Assembly (NCBI GenBank): GCA_002050165.1
Contig: MWSW01000007.1
Span: 1 to 64,000 of the forward strand
Length of the DNA: 64,000 bases
Source of the DNA: Candidatus Tepidiaquacellales bacterium OLB4/UTCHB1
Lineage (GTDB): Bacteria > Bacteroidota > Ignavibacteria > Tepidaquicellales > Tepidaquicellaceae
Direction of reading: 5' to 3'
The position numbers and the translations under genes are program-made. Positions 18 through 32,671 of the stretch are shown here, piece after piece (the first letter of the stretch is position 1; each line of letters opens with the position of its first letter). The notes under the pieces are model-generated. The model worked only from the letters and a program-made list of their open reading frames with translations. It was not told where the DNA came from and searched no databases.

Positions 18-2006
18 TTATTTCATCAGTATCATGCGTTTTGTTTGACTGAAATTACCTGCTTCAAGTCGATAGAAATATATACCACTTGAAAGATGAG
101 GTGCTTGAAAATCAAATTCATAAGACCCCGGAACCAGCTCGCTGTTTACAAGCAGCGCAATTTCCCTTCCGTTTATATCATAAACTGTAAGCTTTGTAAA
201 AGACTGTTCAGGAATATCAAACCTGATTTTTGTAACCGGATTGAAGGGATTAGGATAATTATTCCAAAGGGAAAATTCTGATGGAACTTCGTGGGATGAA
301 ATTGTAATCCCAACGGAAGTACGTTTTAAAATAACGATAAAAGTATTTGATGAGAGGGAATCCAATCCGTTGTATGCCATTACAGACCAGAGGCACATCA
401 CAGAATCTCCAACCGTTCCGAAAAGTGCTGCCAATGAATCAAGTTCGCGGTTCCTGATAGTAAACTTCGAAGATTTACCGTTAGAATCGCTTTGGTATGA
501 AATATTGCTTGAAGCCGGAGTTCCGCCCTTTCTGATTTTAAATGCATAACTGATAAACGGGTCAAATCCAGCATCTGACCAATCGAATGTATGCAACGTG
601 TTCTGATCATTCATTGATACAGGAATTGATGTAAGATTGGACGGTGATGTCAGTGCAATTGATTGCATTTGAACTCCTTTGACTGTAACGTAATCATCAA
701 CAAATATTGTATCAGAGCCGAACGAATTTGAGACGATTAATTCCACATCGTATCTGCCCGGAGTAGAATAATTCACTGTTGGATTTTGCTGAGTTGAAGA
801 TGATGGTGACCCACCCGGGAAAGTCCAATTCCAGCTGGTTGGAATTCCTCTTGAATCGTCAATGAAATTGATAGAGTTACTGTGTTGTATAACATTGTTG
901 TCGGATTCAAATAAAGCAATTGGTTGTCCCTGTACGGGAGTTAATCCCTGTGAATTTTGCAAACTTGCCCTTATTCCGTTTAAGGTAGCTACCATTCTGA
1001 CTTTCTGACCTTGGGTGAAAATATTCATGCAAATATCATTTGTATAATCCATATAGTTCATGAACATATCACCATTGGGATTAGACTGATTGCAGGAGTT
1101 AGGACGATAAGGGAAAGACGGACAACCATAATTTTCTGTCTCCTGTGTAGGGGTATCAGCTACAAGGTCGCTGCCGCAATAGTTATCGCCCCAGATATGA
1201 TAAAGCGATAACCAGTGACCGACTTCATGCGAGGCAGTTCGTCCAAGGTTGTAAGGTGATGACAATACTCCGACTCTACCGAAATAATTATAGCCGATAA
1301 CAACTCCGTCAGTTGCCGGATTTCCTCCGGGGAATGTTGCAAATCCGAGAATGTTGTTATTTATTGCCGGTGCAGTCCAGATGTTCAGGTAGCTCGCGCT
1401 TGGCCATGCATCCTTACCCCCGGTGGAAGAATATTTAATTTGCGGACCTGTCGGAAATGACGTAACGGAAGTTTGAGTTCTGGTAATTCCCAATGTCGGA
1501 TTGCCGTTTGGATCTCTGACTGCAAGTTTAAATTCTATTTCAGCATCTGCGGCAAACGGTACAAAAGGTGCAGGTGTATTTACTGTATCCGCATTCAATC
1601 TCCTGAAATCTTCGTTCAATACGTCAATCTGGCTTTTGATTTGCTCGTATGAAATATTTTGAATCGGTTGATTCCAGACGACGTGAACAACGACAGGTAT
1701 TGTAATAACCTGCCTGCCGGAGAAATCATGCTTTTTTGAAAAATCTTTTACGTATTCTTCAAAAGCATTAATTCTGTCATTAAATCCTGGATCTTCTTGT
1801 TTCATTAAATCGAGATATTCGTCAAATCCACATTTCGCGGTTTTCAGTTTTTCGGTTTGTGACGCGAAATTAAAACCTGCGGTATTTAACTGTTCTGGCT
1901 CCTTTGCCTGATCTCCTTTTTCAAGTAAAAATCCTGTTACAACAAGAAATATAACGGCTATACTGTTTAACGTAACTGATAGCCGTGAAAATTTAAAGTT
2001 TTTCAT
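18..2006 (-). CDS. Secreted M43-like (pappalysin-type) zinc metalloprotease with PKD and T9SS sorting domains
   Basis: A 662-residue protein with an N-terminal hydrophobic signal segment (about 7-27). The catalytic zinc site is HEVGHWLSLYH at 260-270 (H260, E261, H264, H270), followed by a Met-turn MNYMD near 316-320, as in the M43 cytophagalysin/pappalysin family. A PKD-like domain (about 362-443, with SWNWTFPGG) follows, then a module of about 120 residues (446-566) shared with the next gene, then a T9SS type A sorting domain (about 578-662) with NYPNPFNP. It is predicted to be exported and released or anchored at the cell surface; the substrate is unknown. It is the last gene of a three-protease run on this strand, 71 bases after its neighbour. 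The protease class is well supported, the exact family slightly less so. Confidence 0.9.
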   Translation of the reverse strand: MKNFKFSRLSVTLNSIAVIFLVVTGFLLEKGDQAKEPEQLNTAGFNFASQTEKLKTAKCGFDEYLDLMKQEDPGFNDRINAFEEYVKDFSKKHDFSGRQVITIPVVVHVVWNQPIQNISYEQIKSQIDVLNEDFRRLNADTVNTPAPFVPFAADAEIEFKLAVRDPNGNPTLGITRTQTSVTSFPTGPQIKYSSTGGKDAWPSASYLNIWTAPAINNNILGFATFPGGNPATDGVVIGYNYFGRVGVLSSPYNLGRTASHEVGHWLSLYHIWGDNYCGSDLVADTPTQETENYGCPSFPYRPNSCNQSNPNGDMFMNYMDYTNDICMNIFTQGQKVRMVATLNGIRASLQNSQGLTPVQGQPIALFESDNNVIQHSNSINFIDDSRGIPTSWNWTFPGGSPSSSTQQNPTVNYSTPGRYDVELIVSNSFGSDTIFVDDYVTVKGVQMQSIALTSPSNLTSIPVSMNDQNTLHTFDWSDAGFDPFISYAFKIRKGGTPASSNISYQSDSNGKSSKFTIRNRELDSLAALFGTVGDSVMCLWSVMAYNGLDSLSSNTFIVILKRTSVGITISSHEVPSEFSLWNNYPNPFNPVTKIRFDIPEQSFTKLTVYDINGREIALLVNSELVPGSYEFDFQAPHLSSGIYFYRLEAGNFSQTKRMILMK
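309..671 (-). repeat. Paralogous C-terminal module, copy 1 (in M43-like protease)
   Basis: This stretch codes for residues 446-566 of the M43-like protease and aligns without large gaps to a segment of the neighbouring M12B-like protease. Shared landmarks are IRKGGTP, LDS followed by VGDS, LWS, AYNG, DS(L/V)SSNTF and KRT(S/T)(V/I)GI. It sits directly before the sorting domain in both proteins. The second copy is at 2366-2719. Confidence 0.8.
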
Positions 2007-2077
2007 AATTATTTTTTTATGAACTCAAGAAATCTGTTGTGAAAATTACACCTAAGTACAGATTAATAAAAGACAAA

Positions 2078-4336
2078 TTATTTTATTAAAACCATTCTCT
2101 TTACCTGCCTGAATCCCGGAGTGGATAGTTCATAAAAGTAAATTCCACTTGAAACTGTTGAAGCATTCCAAAGATAAGTATAAGTTCCTGCCTGCAGTTT
2201 CGAGTTTAGCAATGATGCAACCTCCCTACCGGATATATCGAATATTTTAAGTGACACGATTGTGTTTTCAGGTAAATCAAACTTAATGTTAGTTGTCGGA
2301 TTGAACGGATTCGGATAATTGTTGAACAGAGCGTATTTATCCGGAATTTCAGTTGGTACAGTTTGAATCCCTATAGTTGTTCTTTTTATTATCAGGATGA
2401 AAGTATTTGAAGATACGGAATCGTATCCGTTATACGCCCAACCTGACCAGAGAGTAAGAATTGAATCGCCGACGTTTGCACCAAGTGTTGATGCGATCGA
2501 ATCAAGAAGTCCTCCTGTAATTGTAATTGAAGTATCCGTGCCACCAGAATTACTTTGAAAGTACAAGTTTGAATTCATAGGGGTTCCGCCTTTTCTTATT
2601 GACCATTTGTAAGAGATTGACGGATGTGTACCCGCGCTTGACCAGACGAAATCGTGAGTTTGAGATTGTCCGGGCGATGTTTGAATTGAGTGCATTGTCG
2701 GTGGTGATATATTGTGCATAGACACAAAGTTCAGAATTATTCTGAACGTTGACGTTGTAGTATCACCGATTGATGGATTGGACGAATCATACATTCTAAT
2801 CAACGCCTGATCAGTGTATCCGATATATGGGATAGTCCAGTTGTATGTTCCTGCCAGAGCGTTGACATTATCAGAAATAGTGTGCCATTCATTTCCGTTG
2901 TTTGTAGAATATTCTAAATTAAGCGTACCTGTTAAGCTCGTTCCCCAGTAGATCGGCACCTCATCATCGGTTCGGAAAGTTTCCCCACCTTGTGGGTAAG
3001 CAAGGATGAGTTGCTCAGAGGCATTAACAACACAAGGTGCATTCGATGCTCTCAGTCGTATCCTGTCACCAGGTTGATCGCCAAATCCAAGTACAAAACT
3101 GATTCCGCCTGAGGTAAGGTGACAGTAACTCATAATTGTTCCGGTTCTTGGTATGACCGGTCCGTTGTAGCAGTTTCCCTCAACCTGATAGCAACTGTCA
3201 ATTGGTCCGCCGTTCCAAGCAGTGCAACTGTGAGTATGAGCCGACCCGAAATTGTGTCCAAGTTCGTGAGCAACAACCATGACATCCCAGGAGTAAGTTG
3301 GCAATTGGTAAATATTTCCATCGGTGTTGCTGAAACCATAACCGTTACCCATAGTTGGAGAATCGCATAAAACATTTACCCACGCAATACCTCCCAATCC
3401 GCCTGAACGAATACTAATTAGGTGTGCAACTGTTCTGGAAACTCCCGATTGAGTCGAGTTCCAGTGATCCTTGAACTGATTGAGTATGATACTTGAAGTC
3501 GTTCCGGTGTACGGATCAGGCGTTGTCCAGATTCTGATATAGGAAGAAACAAGTTTTATATTAACTTCTTTTAGATACAGCGTTGATATGGCAGTCATAA
3601 GTTTCATGATGTAGTTCATAGTATTTGTTACGCTGCCGTACGCGAGGTAAGTAACATAATCAACATCCAGTGCGATGTCCGCTTCAAGCAACGGTGCATC
3701 AGTAATGTTATCAGCGTGGTAATATTTTTTGTCTTCGTTAAAACTTTGCATAAGTTCATCAGAAAAAACATCGCTTGTTTCACACCTGAAATCATTTTTA
3801 ATTTTCAAGTCGCTATCCCTGTACAGAATGAATTTGTTATCAAGGGATGATAAGCCGGTGTTTAATTTTCCAATCACGTAATTCCCTGACGAATTTGACA
3901 TCATGGCAGTAACATCATCTTTGGTTATATTAAACACAACGGTGGAATTTTCTGAACCTGCAATATTACCTTTGTAACTCAGAACGAGATCGCCAAGGGT
4001 TACTTCCCTTTCACCTTCCGGAGTCATCTCAACTATTTTAGTCCAGGGTTTGAGAATATCAAATTTTTCAAGAGAGGCTATAACGTATTCATTTTCGCTA
4101 ACCGGAACAAAGAGGTCAAGCTTCATTGGTTTCTCTGAATAAATTGAGCTTAACTCGGTTTTGTTAACATCAAATATTAATGAATGACCAACGAGGTTAT
4201 CTACAATATTTAAATTTGGTAGCGCTTCTGGTTCAATTACAGTAAACAAGTTCTGGCTTACTTTGTTTTGTGAATACGCGGTTACAGCAAAAGATACAGT
4301 GAATAATATAATGACAGCAAAAATTAATTTTTTCAT
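2078..4336 (-). CDS. Secreted reprolysin-like (M12B) zinc metalloprotease with T9SS sorting domain
   Basis: A 752-residue protein with a signal peptide (about 1-22) and a propeptide-like N-terminal region. The metzincin zinc site is HELGHNFGSAH at 357-367, with a Met-turn-like IMSYC at 401-405. A Kre9/KNH-type beta domain follows (about 444-535, YPQGGETFRT...IYW), then the module shared with the downstream protease (about 540-657, containing RKGGTP), then a T9SS type A domain (NNYPNPFNP near 672-680). It starts only 5 bases after the stop of the M14 gene, so the two are almost certainly cotranscribed. It probably degrades extracellular protein; the natural substrate cannot be read from sequence. 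Confidence 0.9.
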   Translation of the reverse strand: MKKLIFAVIILFTVSFAVTAYSQNKVSQNLFTVIEPEALPNLNIVDNLVGHSLIFDVNKTELSSIYSEKPMKLDLFVPVSENEYVIASLEKFDILKPWTKIVEMTPEGEREVTLGDLVLSYKGNIAGSENSTVVFNITKDDVTAMMSNSSGNYVIGKLNTGLSSLDNKFILYRDSDLKIKNDFRCETSDVFSDELMQSFNEDKKYYHADNITDAPLLEADIALDVDYVTYLAYGSVTNTMNYIMKLMTAISTLYLKEVNIKLVSSYIRIWTTPDPYTGTTSSIILNQFKDHWNSTQSGVSRTVAHLISIRSGGLGGIAWVNVLCDSPTMGNGYGFSNTDGNIYQLPTYSWDVMVVAHELGHNFGSAHTHSCTAWNGGPIDSCYQVEGNCYNGPVIPRTGTIMSYCHLTSGGISFVLGFGDQPGDRIRLRASNAPCVVNASEQLILAYPQGGETFRTDDEVPIYWGTSLTGTLNLEYSTNNGNEWHTISDNVNALAGTYNWTIPYIGYTDQALIRMYDSSNPSIGDTTTSTFRIILNFVSMHNISPPTMHSIQTSPGQSQTHDFVWSSAGTHPSISYKWSIRKGGTPMNSNLYFQSNSGGTDTSITITGGLLDSIASTLGANVGDSILTLWSGWAYNGYDSVSSNTFILIIKRTTIGIQTVPTEIPDKYALFNNYPNPFNPTTNIKFDLPENTIVSLKIFDISGREVASLLNSKLQAGTYTYLWNASTVSSGIYFYELSTPGFRQVKRMVLIK
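2366..2719 (-). repeat. Paralogous C-terminal module, copy 2 (in M12B-like protease)
   Basis: This stretch codes for residues 540-657 of the M12B-like protease and is the partner of the module at 309-671. The protein similarity is much higher than between the catalytic parts, which belong to different protease families. That points to domain duplication or exchange between neighbouring genes. Confidence 0.8.
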
Positions 4337-4341
4337 TTTGA

Positions 4342-6855
4342 TTATTTTATTAGTAACATTCTTTTTGAGTCAATGAAAACAGGAGAATCAGATAAACTGT
4401 TTTTCACAGTGAGCCGATAAATATAAATACCGCTTGCTAAATTGGAACCATCAAAACTAACCTGATAATTGCCTGCTTGCAATTGCGAGTTAACCAAAGT
4501 TGTAATTTTCCTGCCGAGCAGGTCAAAAACCTCAATTTGTGCGTTTCCTTCATCGGTTAAAGAGAAACTGAAATTAGTTATAGGGTTAAACGGATTAGGG
4601 AAATTTTGTGAAAGTGAATATTTAAGCGGAATCTCACCGTTCCCTGTTACAGCGGATGTATTTTCATAACCCCAAATTTTTATATCGTCAATGTACCATC
4701 CGTCATAGGTTACCGCAATATCGCTTTTAAACATGAACCTAAATTTAACCGAGTGACCAATGTAAGGTGTGAGGTCCATGGATTCTTCTATCCATTCAGA
4801 CTGAGTACCGTTAAAAAGTGGTTGACCGTTTGGTTGAAAACTTCCGCTTCCGGGTCTGGTTTTTTTACCGGCGAGCGCTATCCAGGTTGAACCGTTATTT
4901 GTTGATACTTGTACTTGTCCGTAATCATAACCCGGCTCCATTGAAAATTTTGTCCTGAATGAGAGCTTGACAGAATTAAATGTACCCAAAGGAATAGTAT
5001 TTACCATTGTAAGAATATTCGTAACGTTATTTCCATAGTTTCCGGATCTCGAATCTGTAAATGATGTAGGTGGTGAATAAAACGATGAAGAAGTGGTATC
5101 CCATACATTCGAGCCAGAACCGGTAGCTGTCCAGTTAGGTGATTTTGAATTTGCCTTATCGAATAATAAAACCGTAGAAGTACCGAGCATTAAAGTTAAC
5201 GTATCCTGACTCACGGTCGCATTATCAATTTTTACTTTAACAAGCAGATTTGTTTCCTGTCCATTGAGTATATTTTCATTTACAATAAACACAAACGGAT
5301 CTGCGCTGTTGTTTTTAGTTTGTAGAAAACCAAAATCCCCGAAATTTTTATTCATGCTCAACCCTGCTACTCCCGAATCGAGCGGAATAAGTTCTGCGGA
5401 AACATTTGAAGCGTTTTGTTTGCCAACGCTTTTCAGACTAATATACAACCTTGAAGTATCACCTGCATCCAGTCCCGAGCCTTCAGCTAAATCGAAACTT
5501 TTATATTGGACATATTCACCAGCAACACCTGCAAAGAAAATGTTAGGCTGAAGATTTTGCATAACAAGTGGGATTATACGCGATTGCTGTGGCCAGAAAC
5601 CGTCTGATGAAGTGCCAACTTCCGGTGTAATCGAAATGCAATGTACGTGTCCTGAATCGTTATACATCCAGTCATCAGAAGAGCCCCTTACTTCGTAGCC
5701 GACTGTTTGAGAAGCGGTTCCCGGTAAGTAACCGTTGTAAGATGACATTTCCTGTGTAAATGCCTTAAAGATTAAAGAATCGGGTGTCTGCACCGGATCT
5801 ATCCAAGCCCATGGGTATATATAGAGGTTGCTGTATGAGTGATAAAAAAGCGCATTTTGAAAATTCTTTGAATTAACAAAATTTTGAATAGTTTGTGTTT
5901 CTGGTTCGGAGAAAGGCGCTGTTCCACGGTATGTATCGGATGACGGACTCGTAGATGAACCACCGTTAGGAGAATTCCAAAACTGATAGAGACCGAAATT
6001 TCTGTTTAGGTCAATTCCGTTGGTTGCCGGCTGATACACATTAGTATCTACATTGCGCAAATTTTTCCTTCGCATTCCACCACCGTTGGGTCTGTGCTTT
6101 CGGTTATATTTGTAGCCTTCAGGGTTGACAAACGGGATGAAATACATATCGCGGTTTTCAAGAAGAAATTTGACGGTTTCATTAGTTGGATAATTTTCAA
6201 GGAGGTAGATTGTGTAATACATCATCAACATTACAGTAATCGCTTCCCTTGAATGAATTAATGCCGTATATAAAACCTGTGGTCTGTTATTTGTTTGATC
6301 CGGGTCTTTCGTTAAACGATAAGCCCATATGGGAGTACCGTTATATGCAGTGCCGATTTGAAACTTTGATGACATTAATTGCGGATATAATGTCCGCAGG
6401 GAATCGAGCATACCAAGTGTTTGTTCGAAAGTATAATATCCGCCCATTGCTCCAAGTGGAAAATTTGATACGTTATCAACTTCTCTAATCATGTCCAACT
6501 GATGTTGATATTCCTGATTATCAAGTTCAGGATATTTCAGGTACACTTGGTTATACCAATCGTTATAAATTATTTCATACCTAATACCAAGTTTCTTTAT
6601 TATATCCAATTCAGATCCAAAAAGGTAAGCTATTACACAGCTACCTTCTTTATCCGGTTCTGCGTGGTCAATAGCAACGCCGGCTTGCGATAATTTTTTG
6701 ATTGCATCACCTTCGGTGAAAATTTTTAAAACTACTGTTCTGTTGGGATCATCAGAAAATGTTACACTACTTTGTTCGTTTGCATTTAGTGACAAATACA
6801 ATACGACAACAATCAATAAAGGGAAAAAAAATTTCCCATAAGTTTTGAGCTTCAT
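4342..6855 (-). CDS. Secreted M14 zinc carboxypeptidase with T9SS sorting domain
   Basis: An 837-residue protein with a signal segment (about 9-24). The catalytic domain carries the M14 ligand pair HSRE (H201, E204), FVNPEGY, the DLNRNF substrate-binding motif, a third ligand candidate in LFYHSYS, and a catalytic Glu candidate in ITPEVGT. A jelly-roll region resembling the C-terminal part of immune inhibitor A-type proteases follows (SGNYGNN...GWYIDDIKIWG). The C-terminus is a T9SS type A domain (NFPNPFNP). It is the first gene of the protease run and diverges from recG across a 116-base AT-rich gap that must hold both promoters. Predicted role is trimming C-terminal residues from peptides outside the cell. 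Confidence 0.92.
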   Translation of the reverse strand: MKLKTYGKFFFPLLIVVVLYLSLNANEQSSVTFSDDPNRTVVLKIFTEGDAIKKLSQAGVAIDHAEPDKEGSCVIAYLFGSELDIIKKLGIRYEIIYNDWYNQVYLKYPELDNQEYQHQLDMIREVDNVSNFPLGAMGGYYTFEQTLGMLDSLRTLYPQLMSSKFQIGTAYNGTPIWAYRLTKDPDQTNNRPQVLYTALIHSREAITVMLMMYYTIYLLENYPTNETVKFLLENRDMYFIPFVNPEGYKYNRKHRPNGGGMRRKNLRNVDTNVYQPATNGIDLNRNFGLYQFWNSPNGGSSTSPSSDTYRGTAPFSEPETQTIQNFVNSKNFQNALFYHSYSNLYIYPWAWIDPVQTPDSLIFKAFTQEMSSYNGYLPGTASQTVGYEVRGSSDDWMYNDSGHVHCISITPEVGTSSDGFWPQQSRIIPLVMQNLQPNIFFAGVAGEYVQYKSFDLAEGSGLDAGDTSRLYISLKSVGKQNASNVSAELIPLDSGVAGLSMNKNFGDFGFLQTKNNSADPFVFIVNENILNGQETNLLVKVKIDNATVSQDTLTLMLGTSTVLLFDKANSKSPNWTATGSGSNVWDTTSSSFYSPPTSFTDSRSGNYGNNVTNILTMVNTIPLGTFNSVKLSFRTKFSMEPGYDYGQVQVSTNNGSTWIALAGKKTRPGSGSFQPNGQPLFNGTQSEWIEESMDLTPYIGHSVKFRFMFKSDIAVTYDGWYIDDIKIWGYENTSAVTGNGEIPLKYSLSQNFPNPFNPITNFSFSLTDEGNAQIEVFDLLGRKITTLVNSQLQAGNYQVSFDGSNLASGIYIYRLTVKNSLSDSPVFIDSKRMLLIK

Positions 6856-30042: not shown

Positions 30043-30080
30043 AAAAAAAGCCGGACATCGTTGCCCGGCTTTCTATTTTT
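30043..30080. terminator. Bidirectional intrinsic terminator between convergent genes
   Basis: AAAGCCGG at 30047-30054 pairs with CCGGCTTT at 30065-30072 around a 10-base loop. An A run lies on the left and a T-rich run on the right, so it can end transcription from the P-type ATPase gene and from the convergent T9SS protein gene. Confidence 0.85.
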
Positions 30081-30094
30081 TGAGGAGAGCAAAT

Positions 30095-32671
30095 TTATTT
30101 AATAAGCAACATTTTTTTCGTCAGGTTTATTCCTTCGCTAGTTGCAAGCCTGTAAATGTATAAACCTGATGCAAGTCCGGATCCATTAAAGGTAACTGAA
30201 TAATTTGCACCCGGCTTCATGGTTTTGTTAATCAACAGAGCTACTTCACGTCCGGTCATATCATATACTGTTAACGAAACGTGTGATTCAGTTGCAATAT
30301 CAAATGTGATTGTCGTCTGTGGGTTAAACGGATTTGGGAAATTCTGATTCAACTTGAAGTTCTCAATAGTTTCCGTTCCGTTACCCGTAATGTTTGTGGT
30401 TGAGTGTTCAAAGAAGATATCTTTTACGGCGTAATTGAACCCGGAAATATTCTGATTGTAATTCTTTTCGAGTTTGAACAAGACCATTTTAACATTTGAC
30501 CTGTCAATTGCCTGACCGTTAACTCTGAAATCTGATAATTGAATTTGTTGTTGTGACCAGCTGTTATCCAGATTTATATTGACAAACGGGTAAACGTAAA
30601 CACCGTTTTGTATAGCTTCAAGCTGGACAGTCATAACCCCTGTACCTTTGGTTTTGAATTGCAGATTTGAGTACTGGGAAAGGTCTTCATTTACAAACGC
30701 AGCATTCAGAGATCGTGCGATATACACAACATCACCGAGATTACCGCTCATGTTTATACCACCGGTGAAAGCGTAAGCTCCTGCAGGGTAGTGAAAGGTT
30801 CCGTAATTGCTGATGTATTCGAAATTGTTTATCGTGCTCAATGGTCCGGAATAGTTTCCAAACATTCCGCTACCTACGAAGATGGCATCGAGAAAACCCG
30901 ATGGTGAGGCAACCGAAATATTTGCTGATGAAAGGAGACCTATTGAAATTTCAGCTTCAGATACGTCAGGGGGTAAAGTCAGATTTGTGATTTGAGTTTC
31001 CTGCTGTGAATTTTGTTCACGCTTGAATTTTATGTTGACAGGAACAGAAACCGTTTGATTTGTATTGTTGCTGAATACCATCTTAATCTTACCGCTGTTG
31101 AGATACCTTGAAGAAATTACCCAGATATCGGGATTAATCAGGTCTTCCGATTGATAAGAGAGTGAGCTCAAAGCATCGAATTTGTCAAGTATTGATCCAA
31201 CAATTTTCTGAACCGCAAATTCGGTTAATCCCCAAACCTGAAAATTGTAAATGTTTGTTACGTTTTGTCCGGGATGGTAATCTTCAATAGCCCATTTATT
31301 ATCTACTATGTGGCCGTTTGGAGTTTCGTAGATACTGAAAGAAATTGCGTAATCGGTTTCATTATTAACCGGATTATTTAAATGTGCTATGTAAAATTCT
31401 CTATTATTCACATAGGTGATTTTCAGCTCGTCAAGTTCAGAGAGCCCGAATCTGTCGCACACGCTCTTTGAATGGCTGTAAATCTCGGGTGCATTGGTAG
31501 TAGTTGAGAAAACAACACCGACCCGGTTACCGTTCTTTAAGTAATCAACAGCGTAAGCTGAAGTGGCGTTTGAAATACCGAGAATATCAAACGGAGTTGT
31601 TTCGGTTGCAACTGAATTGTATGGTCCTTCATTAGGTACAACGCTCTGAAGTTCAAACATCGGAGCAAAGAGGAAATCCTGATTGGCGACGAGCTTAGAA
31701 GTTTCACCATTGGAGATTTTAAGGTGCCGTAACATCATTGCTTCTGCCATATCGTAAGTTGATTCAATTCCGCCGTTACCACCGCTACTTGTTGAATCCC
31801 ATGTTAATTCAAGACAGTCAATCAAATTTCCATTTACCGGTTTTGCAAGTGCAATTTTTTGTTTGGTTAGCGGAGAGGAAATGTGGATGTAATGTCTGCC
31901 CGGGGAAATTATTGTATATGCGGTTACAGATAACATCGTAGTAAGTCCAGTCCCTTTTGTTACTACTATATTCGGAGTGAAACCATTGACGTCTGAAGTT
32001 AACACTGAACTGCTTAGTGTACCATCGGAAATTGATAGGTTAACCTGAACACCGGATAAAGGGTTACCCAACTCATCAGAAACTTTAACTTTTATAGTGT
32101 CGGCTATAGCAGGATCGGACAAGATGCTTACAGGAATTATTTTCAGTGTATGTACAGGTACAAAAGTACCACCGTTAAGGTTTGCATCTGAAATAATTTC
32201 AAGTGCTCTGTCCCTGACCGGGTTATTATTCTGTAATGAAGTTACATCAAGATTATCCGAAAAATGCCAGATAGCAAACTGGACGGCTGCCGCTTCATTG
32301 GAATCAAGTGGTAACCTTCCTGTGTAACTTGTTTTGTTCGGGAAGTAATTTAACAGTATATAATTTATTTTTGGCTTTACATAAGCTGAATCCGAATAGT
32401 CTTCATTAAAACCGAGAGCATTCCTAATATCCACACAATAAAATGCCGTGTAGTTTCCGTCAACTTTACCATCAAAGGTGCCTGCATACGGAACGTAGAG
32501 TAAATTCGGGGGATTATAAGGATCCACTACCTTCATGTTTCTGGAACCATCTTTCAGGCCAAAAACTTTTCCTACACTAATCCCCTCACAACTGTTCGCT
32601 TCTGCTTTTCCGGCTACGATGAAGATTAGAAGTAACCCGGTAATCGTTATGAGTTTATATATTTTAAACAT
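30095..32671 (-). CDS. Secreted protein with predicted thioester domain, Ig-like domain and T9SS sorting domain
   Basis: An 858-residue protein with a signal peptide (about 1-25). Residues about 28-165 resemble the thioester (TQXA-type) domain of Gram-positive surface adhesins: Cys79 in AFYCVD and Gln131 in AVQFAIW are placed to form an internal Cys-Gln thioester. A Big_1-type Ig-like domain follows (about 180-262, SDELGNPLSGVQVNL), then long beta-rich regions, a carbohydrate-binding-like stretch (about 690-760) and a T9SS domain (NFPNPFNP). A thioester would let it attach covalently to amines on host, polymer or neighbour cells. Such domains are well described in Actinobacteria and Firmicutes; here the cargo goes out by T9SS. 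Confidence 0.82.
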   Translation of the reverse strand: MFKIYKLITITGLLLIFIVAGKAEANSCEGISVGKVFGLKDGSRNMKVVDPYNPPNLLYVPYAGTFDGKVDGNYTAFYCVDIRNALGFNEDYSDSAYVKPKINYILLNYFPNKTSYTGRLPLDSNEAAAVQFAIWHFSDNLDVTSLQNNNPVRDRALEIISDANLNGGTFVPVHTLKIIPVSILSDPAIADTIKVKVSDELGNPLSGVQVNLSISDGTLSSSVLTSDVNGFTPNIVVTKGTGLTTMLSVTAYTIISPGRHYIHISSPLTKQKIALAKPVNGNLIDCLELTWDSTSSGGNGGIESTYDMAEAMMLRHLKISNGETSKLVANQDFLFAPMFELQSVVPNEGPYNSVATETTPFDILGISNATSAYAVDYLKNGNRVGVVFSTTTNAPEIYSHSKSVCDRFGLSELDELKITYVNNREFYIAHLNNPVNNETDYAISFSIYETPNGHIVDNKWAIEDYHPGQNVTNIYNFQVWGLTEFAVQKIVGSILDKFDALSSLSYQSEDLINPDIWVISSRYLNSGKIKMVFSNNTNQTVSVPVNIKFKREQNSQQETQITNLTLPPDVSEAEISIGLLSSANISVASPSGFLDAIFVGSGMFGNYSGPLSTINNFEYISNYGTFHYPAGAYAFTGGINMSGNLGDVVYIARSLNAAFVNEDLSQYSNLQFKTKGTGVMTVQLEAIQNGVYVYPFVNINLDNSWSQQQIQLSDFRVNGQAIDRSNVKMVLFKLEKNYNQNISGFNYAVKDIFFEHSTTNITGNGTETIENFKLNQNFPNPFNPQTTITFDIATESHVSLTVYDMTGREVALLINKTMKPGANYSVTFNGSGLASGLYIYRLATSEGINLTKKMLLIK

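Follow-up and report, generated by a model that had tools for sequence, protein, structure and literature searches.

A class II-type thioester domain on a type IX secretion cargo protein of Ignavibacteria, with Gln271 as the predicted partner of Cys79

An 858-residue open reading frame in a 64,000-nucleotide stretch of an Ignavibacteria genome (contig MWSW01000007.1; hereafter the window) encodes a protein with an N-terminal thioester domain (TED) and a C-terminal type IX secretion (T9SS) tail, and we consider it probable that this protein is a T9SS-delivered surface adhesin with a class II TED head, whose internal thioester would join Cys79 to Gln271. Gram-positive bacteria bond covalently to their targets via a self-made reactive thioester, a 'chemical harpoon'. 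The TED itself is already known and is recognized by Pfam. No description of a TED in a Gram-negative T9SS setting was found in the open-access literature, and database annotation of T9SS-tailed TED proteins may already exist.

Results

Assignment of the thioester domain and the T9SS tail

The gene is solitary, flanked by genes for a P-type ATPase and a sugar nucleotidyltransferase, and its features are collected in Table 1. The signal peptide (~aa 1-25) would be cleaved after AEA. The first-pass annotation had placed Cys79 and Gln131 in the first domain after this peptide, had predicted that domain to be a TED with a thioester between the two residues, and had called the protein a T9SS cargo. 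In the ORF translation, both residues indeed lie in this domain, exactly at the claimed positions, with Cys79 in TAFYCVD (codon 32435-32437) and Gln131 in AAAVQFAIWHFSDN (codon 32279-32281). The assignment of the domain was borne out by Pfam, in which TED PF08341 matched aa 77-164 (E=9.3e-13, 48.9 bits, cutoff 22). A genome-wide search gave a PF08341 score of 53.6 bits and detected one TED only in the whole genome, and TIGR03934 (TQXA) scored under its cutoff (26.7 vs 30.4). The published motifs were also recognized: the [YFL]CΦζ motif as YCVD (aa 78-81), with the Cys in 109/115 relatives; the helix TQxxΦW motif as VQFAIW, with Val instead of Thr, which a profile alignment matched to TQNAIW of Cpa (4c0z) and SfbI (5a0l); and the later ΦQζΦΦ motif as KQKIA (aa 270-274), with Lys at the usually hydrophobic first position.

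The T9SS cargo assignment likewise held, since the type A tail at aa 778-854 scored above the cutoffs of both PF18962 (8.1e-09) and TIGR04183 (2.9e-09); a C-terminal sorting domain of this kind is shared with the T9SS type A cargo of Bacteroidota/Ignavibacteriota. The genome encodes the SprA translocon (916 bits) and has ~115 T9SS-tail matches, among which the window protein is the sole TED-headed one, and its TED and T9SS matches share a 110-kb contig. A profile derived from eight further cargo proteins encoded in this genome detected the T9SS tail in 78/78 complete TED proteins of the window's group and in 0/9 from other phyla. Among the complete proteins examined, the anchor follows the lineage, with the T9SS tail here and LPxTG-like ends in the TED proteins of Actinomycetota. 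Elsewhere in the window, three consecutive minus-strand ORFs of 662, 752 and 837 aa at 18-6855 all match the T9SS tail and make up a cluster of other cargo proteins.

Table 1. Coordinates of the TED protein gene and its predicted features in the window
Feature	Position	Strand	Basis
ORF of the TED protein, 858 aa, with class II-type head and T9SS tail	30095..32671	-	ORF list and Pfam
Probable Sec signal peptide, aa 1-25	32597..32671	-	Sequence MFKIYKLITITGLLLIFIVAGKAEA, followed by NSC; no lipobox
TED head lobe, aa 26-170, beta barrel and three-helix bundle	32162..32596	-	PF08341 aa 77-164; model
Cys79, predicted thioester Cys, FYCVD, [YFL]CΦζ motif	32435..32437	-	Sequence and published motif
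Helix (T)QxxΦW motif VQFAIW, aa 130-135, containing Gln131 and Trp135	32267..32284	-	Kept in 115/115 relatives; Cpa/SfbI alignment
Inserted β-sandwich, aa 175-255, intimin/invasin Big_1-like	31907..32149	-	Profile match to intimin
Return hairpin, aa 256-290, strands P/Q by analogy	31802..31906	-	Model strands aa 259-263, 273-275, 279-290
Gln271, predicted thioester-forming Gln, TKQKIALAKP	31859..31861	-	Conservation in relatives
Carrier region, aa 286-585, without Pfam match, common to other T9SS cargo	30917..31816	-	
CBM11/CBM30-like jelly roll, ~aa 590-756, limits inferred	30404..30904	-	Foldseek 1v0a
T9SS type A C-terminal sorting domain, aa 778-854	30110..30340	-	PF18962, TIGR04183
Terminator-like hairpin, downstream of ORF	30045..30074	-	Weak: 3 found vs 2.1 expected

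Class II-like fold with an intimin-like insert

The AlphaFold2 model of aa 24-300, built from an alignment of 48 rows, had a mean pLDDT of 94.2 and a pTM of 0.89, and its best PDB matches in Foldseek were EfmTIE86, BaTIE and SaTIE, followed by intimin, the SfbI TED and Cpa. The TM-scores to these structures were moderate (0.38-0.50; ~0.5 to the class II TEDs over the whole domain), values that could reflect the angle of the lobes and the different insert. In class II TEDs, a ~75-residue β-sandwich follows the third helix and precedes the hairpin with the Gln (PMC6194298), and the model shows the same order of elements, with a sandwich between the third helix and the Gln271 hairpin. By sequence, the insert resembles the Ig domains of intimin/invasin, with a profile match to intimin (6tpl) at 1.1e-07 and matches to PF02369 and PF09134 below threshold. 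Judged from motifs, profiles and the predicted model, the domain is a thioester domain of the class II fold.

The architecture of an N-terminal head with an inserted β-sandwich is shared with BaTIE (6FWV), EfmTIE86 (6FWY) and SaTIE (6FX6) (PMC6194298), and the [YFL]CΦζ and helix QxxΦW motifs of the Gram-positive class II TEDs are found here as well, at 14-15% identity to the two closest class II TEDs. The class I TEDs of SfbI and Cpa (PMC4450167; 5A0L, 4C0Z) have the head fold and the helix motif in common with the window TED, but lack its sandwich insert. Whereas the Gram-positive class II proteins are LPXTG/sortase substrates, the window protein has the T9SS tail in place of LPXTG and an insert that is intimin/Big_1-like by sequence; furthermore, Pfam detected no isopeptide or ester stalk domain in the protein, which places it outside the TIE proteins.

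Gln271 as the predicted thioester-forming residue

In contrast to the domain assignment, the proposed pairing of Cys79 with Gln131 did not stand. In published TEDs, the thioester Gln sits in a late β-strand, within a weak ΦQζΦΦ motif, whereas thioester formation does not require the Gln and Trp of the TQxxΦW motif in the central helix (PMC4450167; PMC6194298), and Gln131 is this helix-motif Gln. A thioester between Cys79 and Gln131 would be consistent with the conservation of both residues in 109/109 Cys-bearing relatives compared, and with the proximity of the helix Gln to the Cys in solved TEDs. However, in those structures it is the later Gln that makes the bond, and the one in the helix lies beside the thioester, with a hydrogen bond to the backbone of the Cys; a test of whether Cys79 and Gln131 lie far apart would for this reason not discriminate between the pairings. 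In addition, Gln131 and Trp135 are kept in 115/115 non-redundant TEDs, including six Cys79-less paralogs that have retained Gln131 but not Gln271. On these grounds, we regard the Cys79-Gln131 thioester as extremely improbable.

The bond-forming residue is instead almost certainly Gln271 (TKQKIALAKP), 192 residues from Cys79, whose codon falls outside the segment marked in the first-pass annotation. The alignment of relatives contains a conserved Gln after the Big_1-like domain, in KQKIALAKP here and in KQKLVLATP, SQRLVLALP and KQLLVLGRT elsewhere, and in the window protein the stretch from Gln147 to Gln209 is free of further Gln residues. Conservation within the TED is among the highest at Cys79 and Gln271: 107 of the 115 non-redundant TEDs have both and 6 lack both, while Cys79 occurs without Gln271 in 2/115 (position 271 being Lys or Arg) and Gln271 without Cys79 in 0/115, so that Gln271 is kept in 107/109 Cys79-bearing relatives. 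The downstream Gln is also retained in distant TEDs of Chloroflexota, Methanothrix, Myxococcota and Actinomycetota, in the motifs QKLVLA, QRLVMA, QGIVLA, QPLILA and QTLISA. The spacing of 192 residues equals the family median (range 179-229) and compares with 195 in BaTIE (Cys71-Gln266), 171 in SaTIE and 204 in EfmTIE86, as computed from the published residue numbers. When the head was aligned by profile with the solved TEDs after removal of the insert, the head aligned and the Gln271 hairpin did not. The Gln of the IPQGTRY motif, found in the family where the insert ends, was rejected as the partner; the position is Ser here (IISPGRHY) and Gly in many relatives.

In the tree, the six Cys-less proteins formed a single clade (support 98). 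Since one clade holds all six, the joint loss of Cys79 and Gln271 counts as one event, not six, and a Fisher test of the co-loss, used as a probability, was withdrawn because the tree places the losses on one branch.

We also considered a disulfide between Cys79 and Cys28, which the first-pass annotation had named as an outcome that would speak against the thioester. This pairing is disfavoured, as 99/109 of the relatives with Cys79 lack a Cys around position 28, and 7 of the other 10 also have a Cys near 286, suggesting a separate Cys28-Cys286 pair; the rarity of Cys28 and its usual company thus make the Cys79-Cys28 disulfide unlikely. Cys28 (32588-32590) and Cys286 (31814-31816) tend to co-occur in close relatives, and a disulfide between them likely joins both ends of the TED.

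These data bear on the reading that the TED fold has been kept as a structural or lectin-like head, in which a thioester is absent or irrelevant and Cys79 has a free thiol or takes part in a disulfide. One paralog clade does retain the fold and the T9SS tail without either residue, and two paralogs keep the Cys with Lys or Arg at 271. For the window protein, such a head is nevertheless improbable in our estimation, given the conservation of Cys79 and Gln271 described above, the fact that Gln271 is never retained alone, and the tendency of Cys28, when present, to be accompanied by a Cys near 286.

Distribution, arrays and paralogs

A TED was present in 29/148 relatives, and a TED match was obtained in 33/395 sampled Ignavibacteriota genomes, 32 of the 33 within the window's class; the bearers include many Ignavibacteria MAGs as well as Melioribacter and Stygiobacter electus. 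Within the window's family, several genomes contain tandem arrays of short (~470 aa) TED proteins with T9SS tails, reaching six or seven such proteins (L031, L032, L033, L034, L039 and L040), and the arrays adjoin a conserved gene pair that encodes a thioredoxin reductase-like protein (IIGSGPAGL) and a protein starting MPYYYKLGEIPQKRHTQFRQPDGSL.

The clade that lacks both residues comprises L032:13556-14971, L043:260-1711, L034:9204-10622, L041:11565-13019, L033:8021-9496 and L029:559-2046, in which Cys79 is replaced by Ser or Phe and Gln271 by Pro. The Ser type (5/6) carries a CPK[LV]..AC pattern, which suggests a disulfide in the place of the thioester. The paralogs that keep the Cys with Lys or Arg instead of the thioester Gln are L034:5445-6842 and L031:7882-9285. 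Moreover, three loci from Methanothrix/Methanosaeta MAGs (L132, L133 and L138) encode archaeal TED proteins of ~1050 aa with YCMD and IQRLVMA motifs, which would represent a thioester head outside Bacteria if the contig binning is correct.

Carrier region

Residues 286-775 matched no Pfam family and are common to other T9SS cargo, including proteins with a non-TED N-terminal part. In two near relatives of this region, L174 and L175 (G025 and G023), the non-TED part looks like a DUF11-type repeat by eye, which suggests that heads are swapped on a common T9SS carrier. The model of the carrier part (pLDDT 81, 16 alignment rows) matched CBM11 and CBM30 modules in Foldseek (1v0a, E=7.5e-07, TM-score on target 0.63); the CBM11-like match would cover ~aa 590-756, and this portion may bind glycans. 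The other, lower-quality matches were whole-chain β-rich coincidences.

Discussion

A T9SS-displayed covalent adhesin, as the first-pass annotation had suggested, is the best-supported reading of this protein, in which the TED family match and class II-like fold, the conserved Cys79/Gln271 pair and the T9SS tail coincide with a SprA gene in the same genome. By analogy with the Gram-positive TEDs, the protein would be exported by Sec and folded first, and the Cys79 thiol would then attack the side-chain amide of Gln271. Ammonia would leave to give the internal Cys79-Gln271 thioester, buried beside the helix residues Gln131 and Trp135, with the Big_1-type Ig-like insert between the helical head and the Gln271 strand, an arrangement shared with slipknot class II TEDs. 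The C-terminal tail would direct the protein across the outer membrane via the T9SS, and the protein would stay at the cell surface with the head outward. On contact with an amine of the target, the thioester would be exchanged for an amide, and the CBM11-like stalk domain may supply a first, non-covalent hold on glycans.

A precedent for action between bacteria, not on a host, is TIEpLS20, a class II TED adhesin that serves conjugation in Bacillus subtilis, whose Cys68-Gln256 thioester (188 residues apart) was inferred from a model and a C68S mutant (PMC8092201). Its YCID motif resembles YCVD here. TIEpLS20 is plasmid-borne, Gram-positive and equipped with CnaB-type stalk domains, whereas the window gene is chromosomal, and our search for plasmid relatives gave no match.

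As a serious alternative function, the Cys79-Gln271 thioester may form but, instead of attaching to an external target, cross-link the protein to the cell's own surface polymers or to adjacent sister cells, as in a matrix or biofilm. The tandem arrays of the relatives could suit a shared matrix, most of the relatives listed are MAGs from the environment that have no evident host, and a carbohydrate-binding-like domain is present. In contrast, the one well-characterized TED target in the literature consulted is an external protein, fibrinogen for SfbI (PMC4450167), and the window's genome has a single TED and no array. We hold self or matrix cross-linking to be rather unlikely and prefer attachment to an external target by the T9SS-displayed adhesin.

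For the family as a whole, we tentatively propose, with slightly less than even confidence, that the Ignavibacteria group displays covalent thioester adhesins through the T9SS, with arrays mixing reactive and dead paralogs in some lineages, as an evolved Gram-negative route of irreversible covalent attachment that combines the same head with a lineage-specific anchor. Across the Ignavibacteriota, cargo of the T9SS carries the same head with its Cys and late Gln. Provided that the thioester does form, Gram-negative bacteria would have access to covalent adhesion, and the question of which targets environmental bacteria attach to in this way would become testable.
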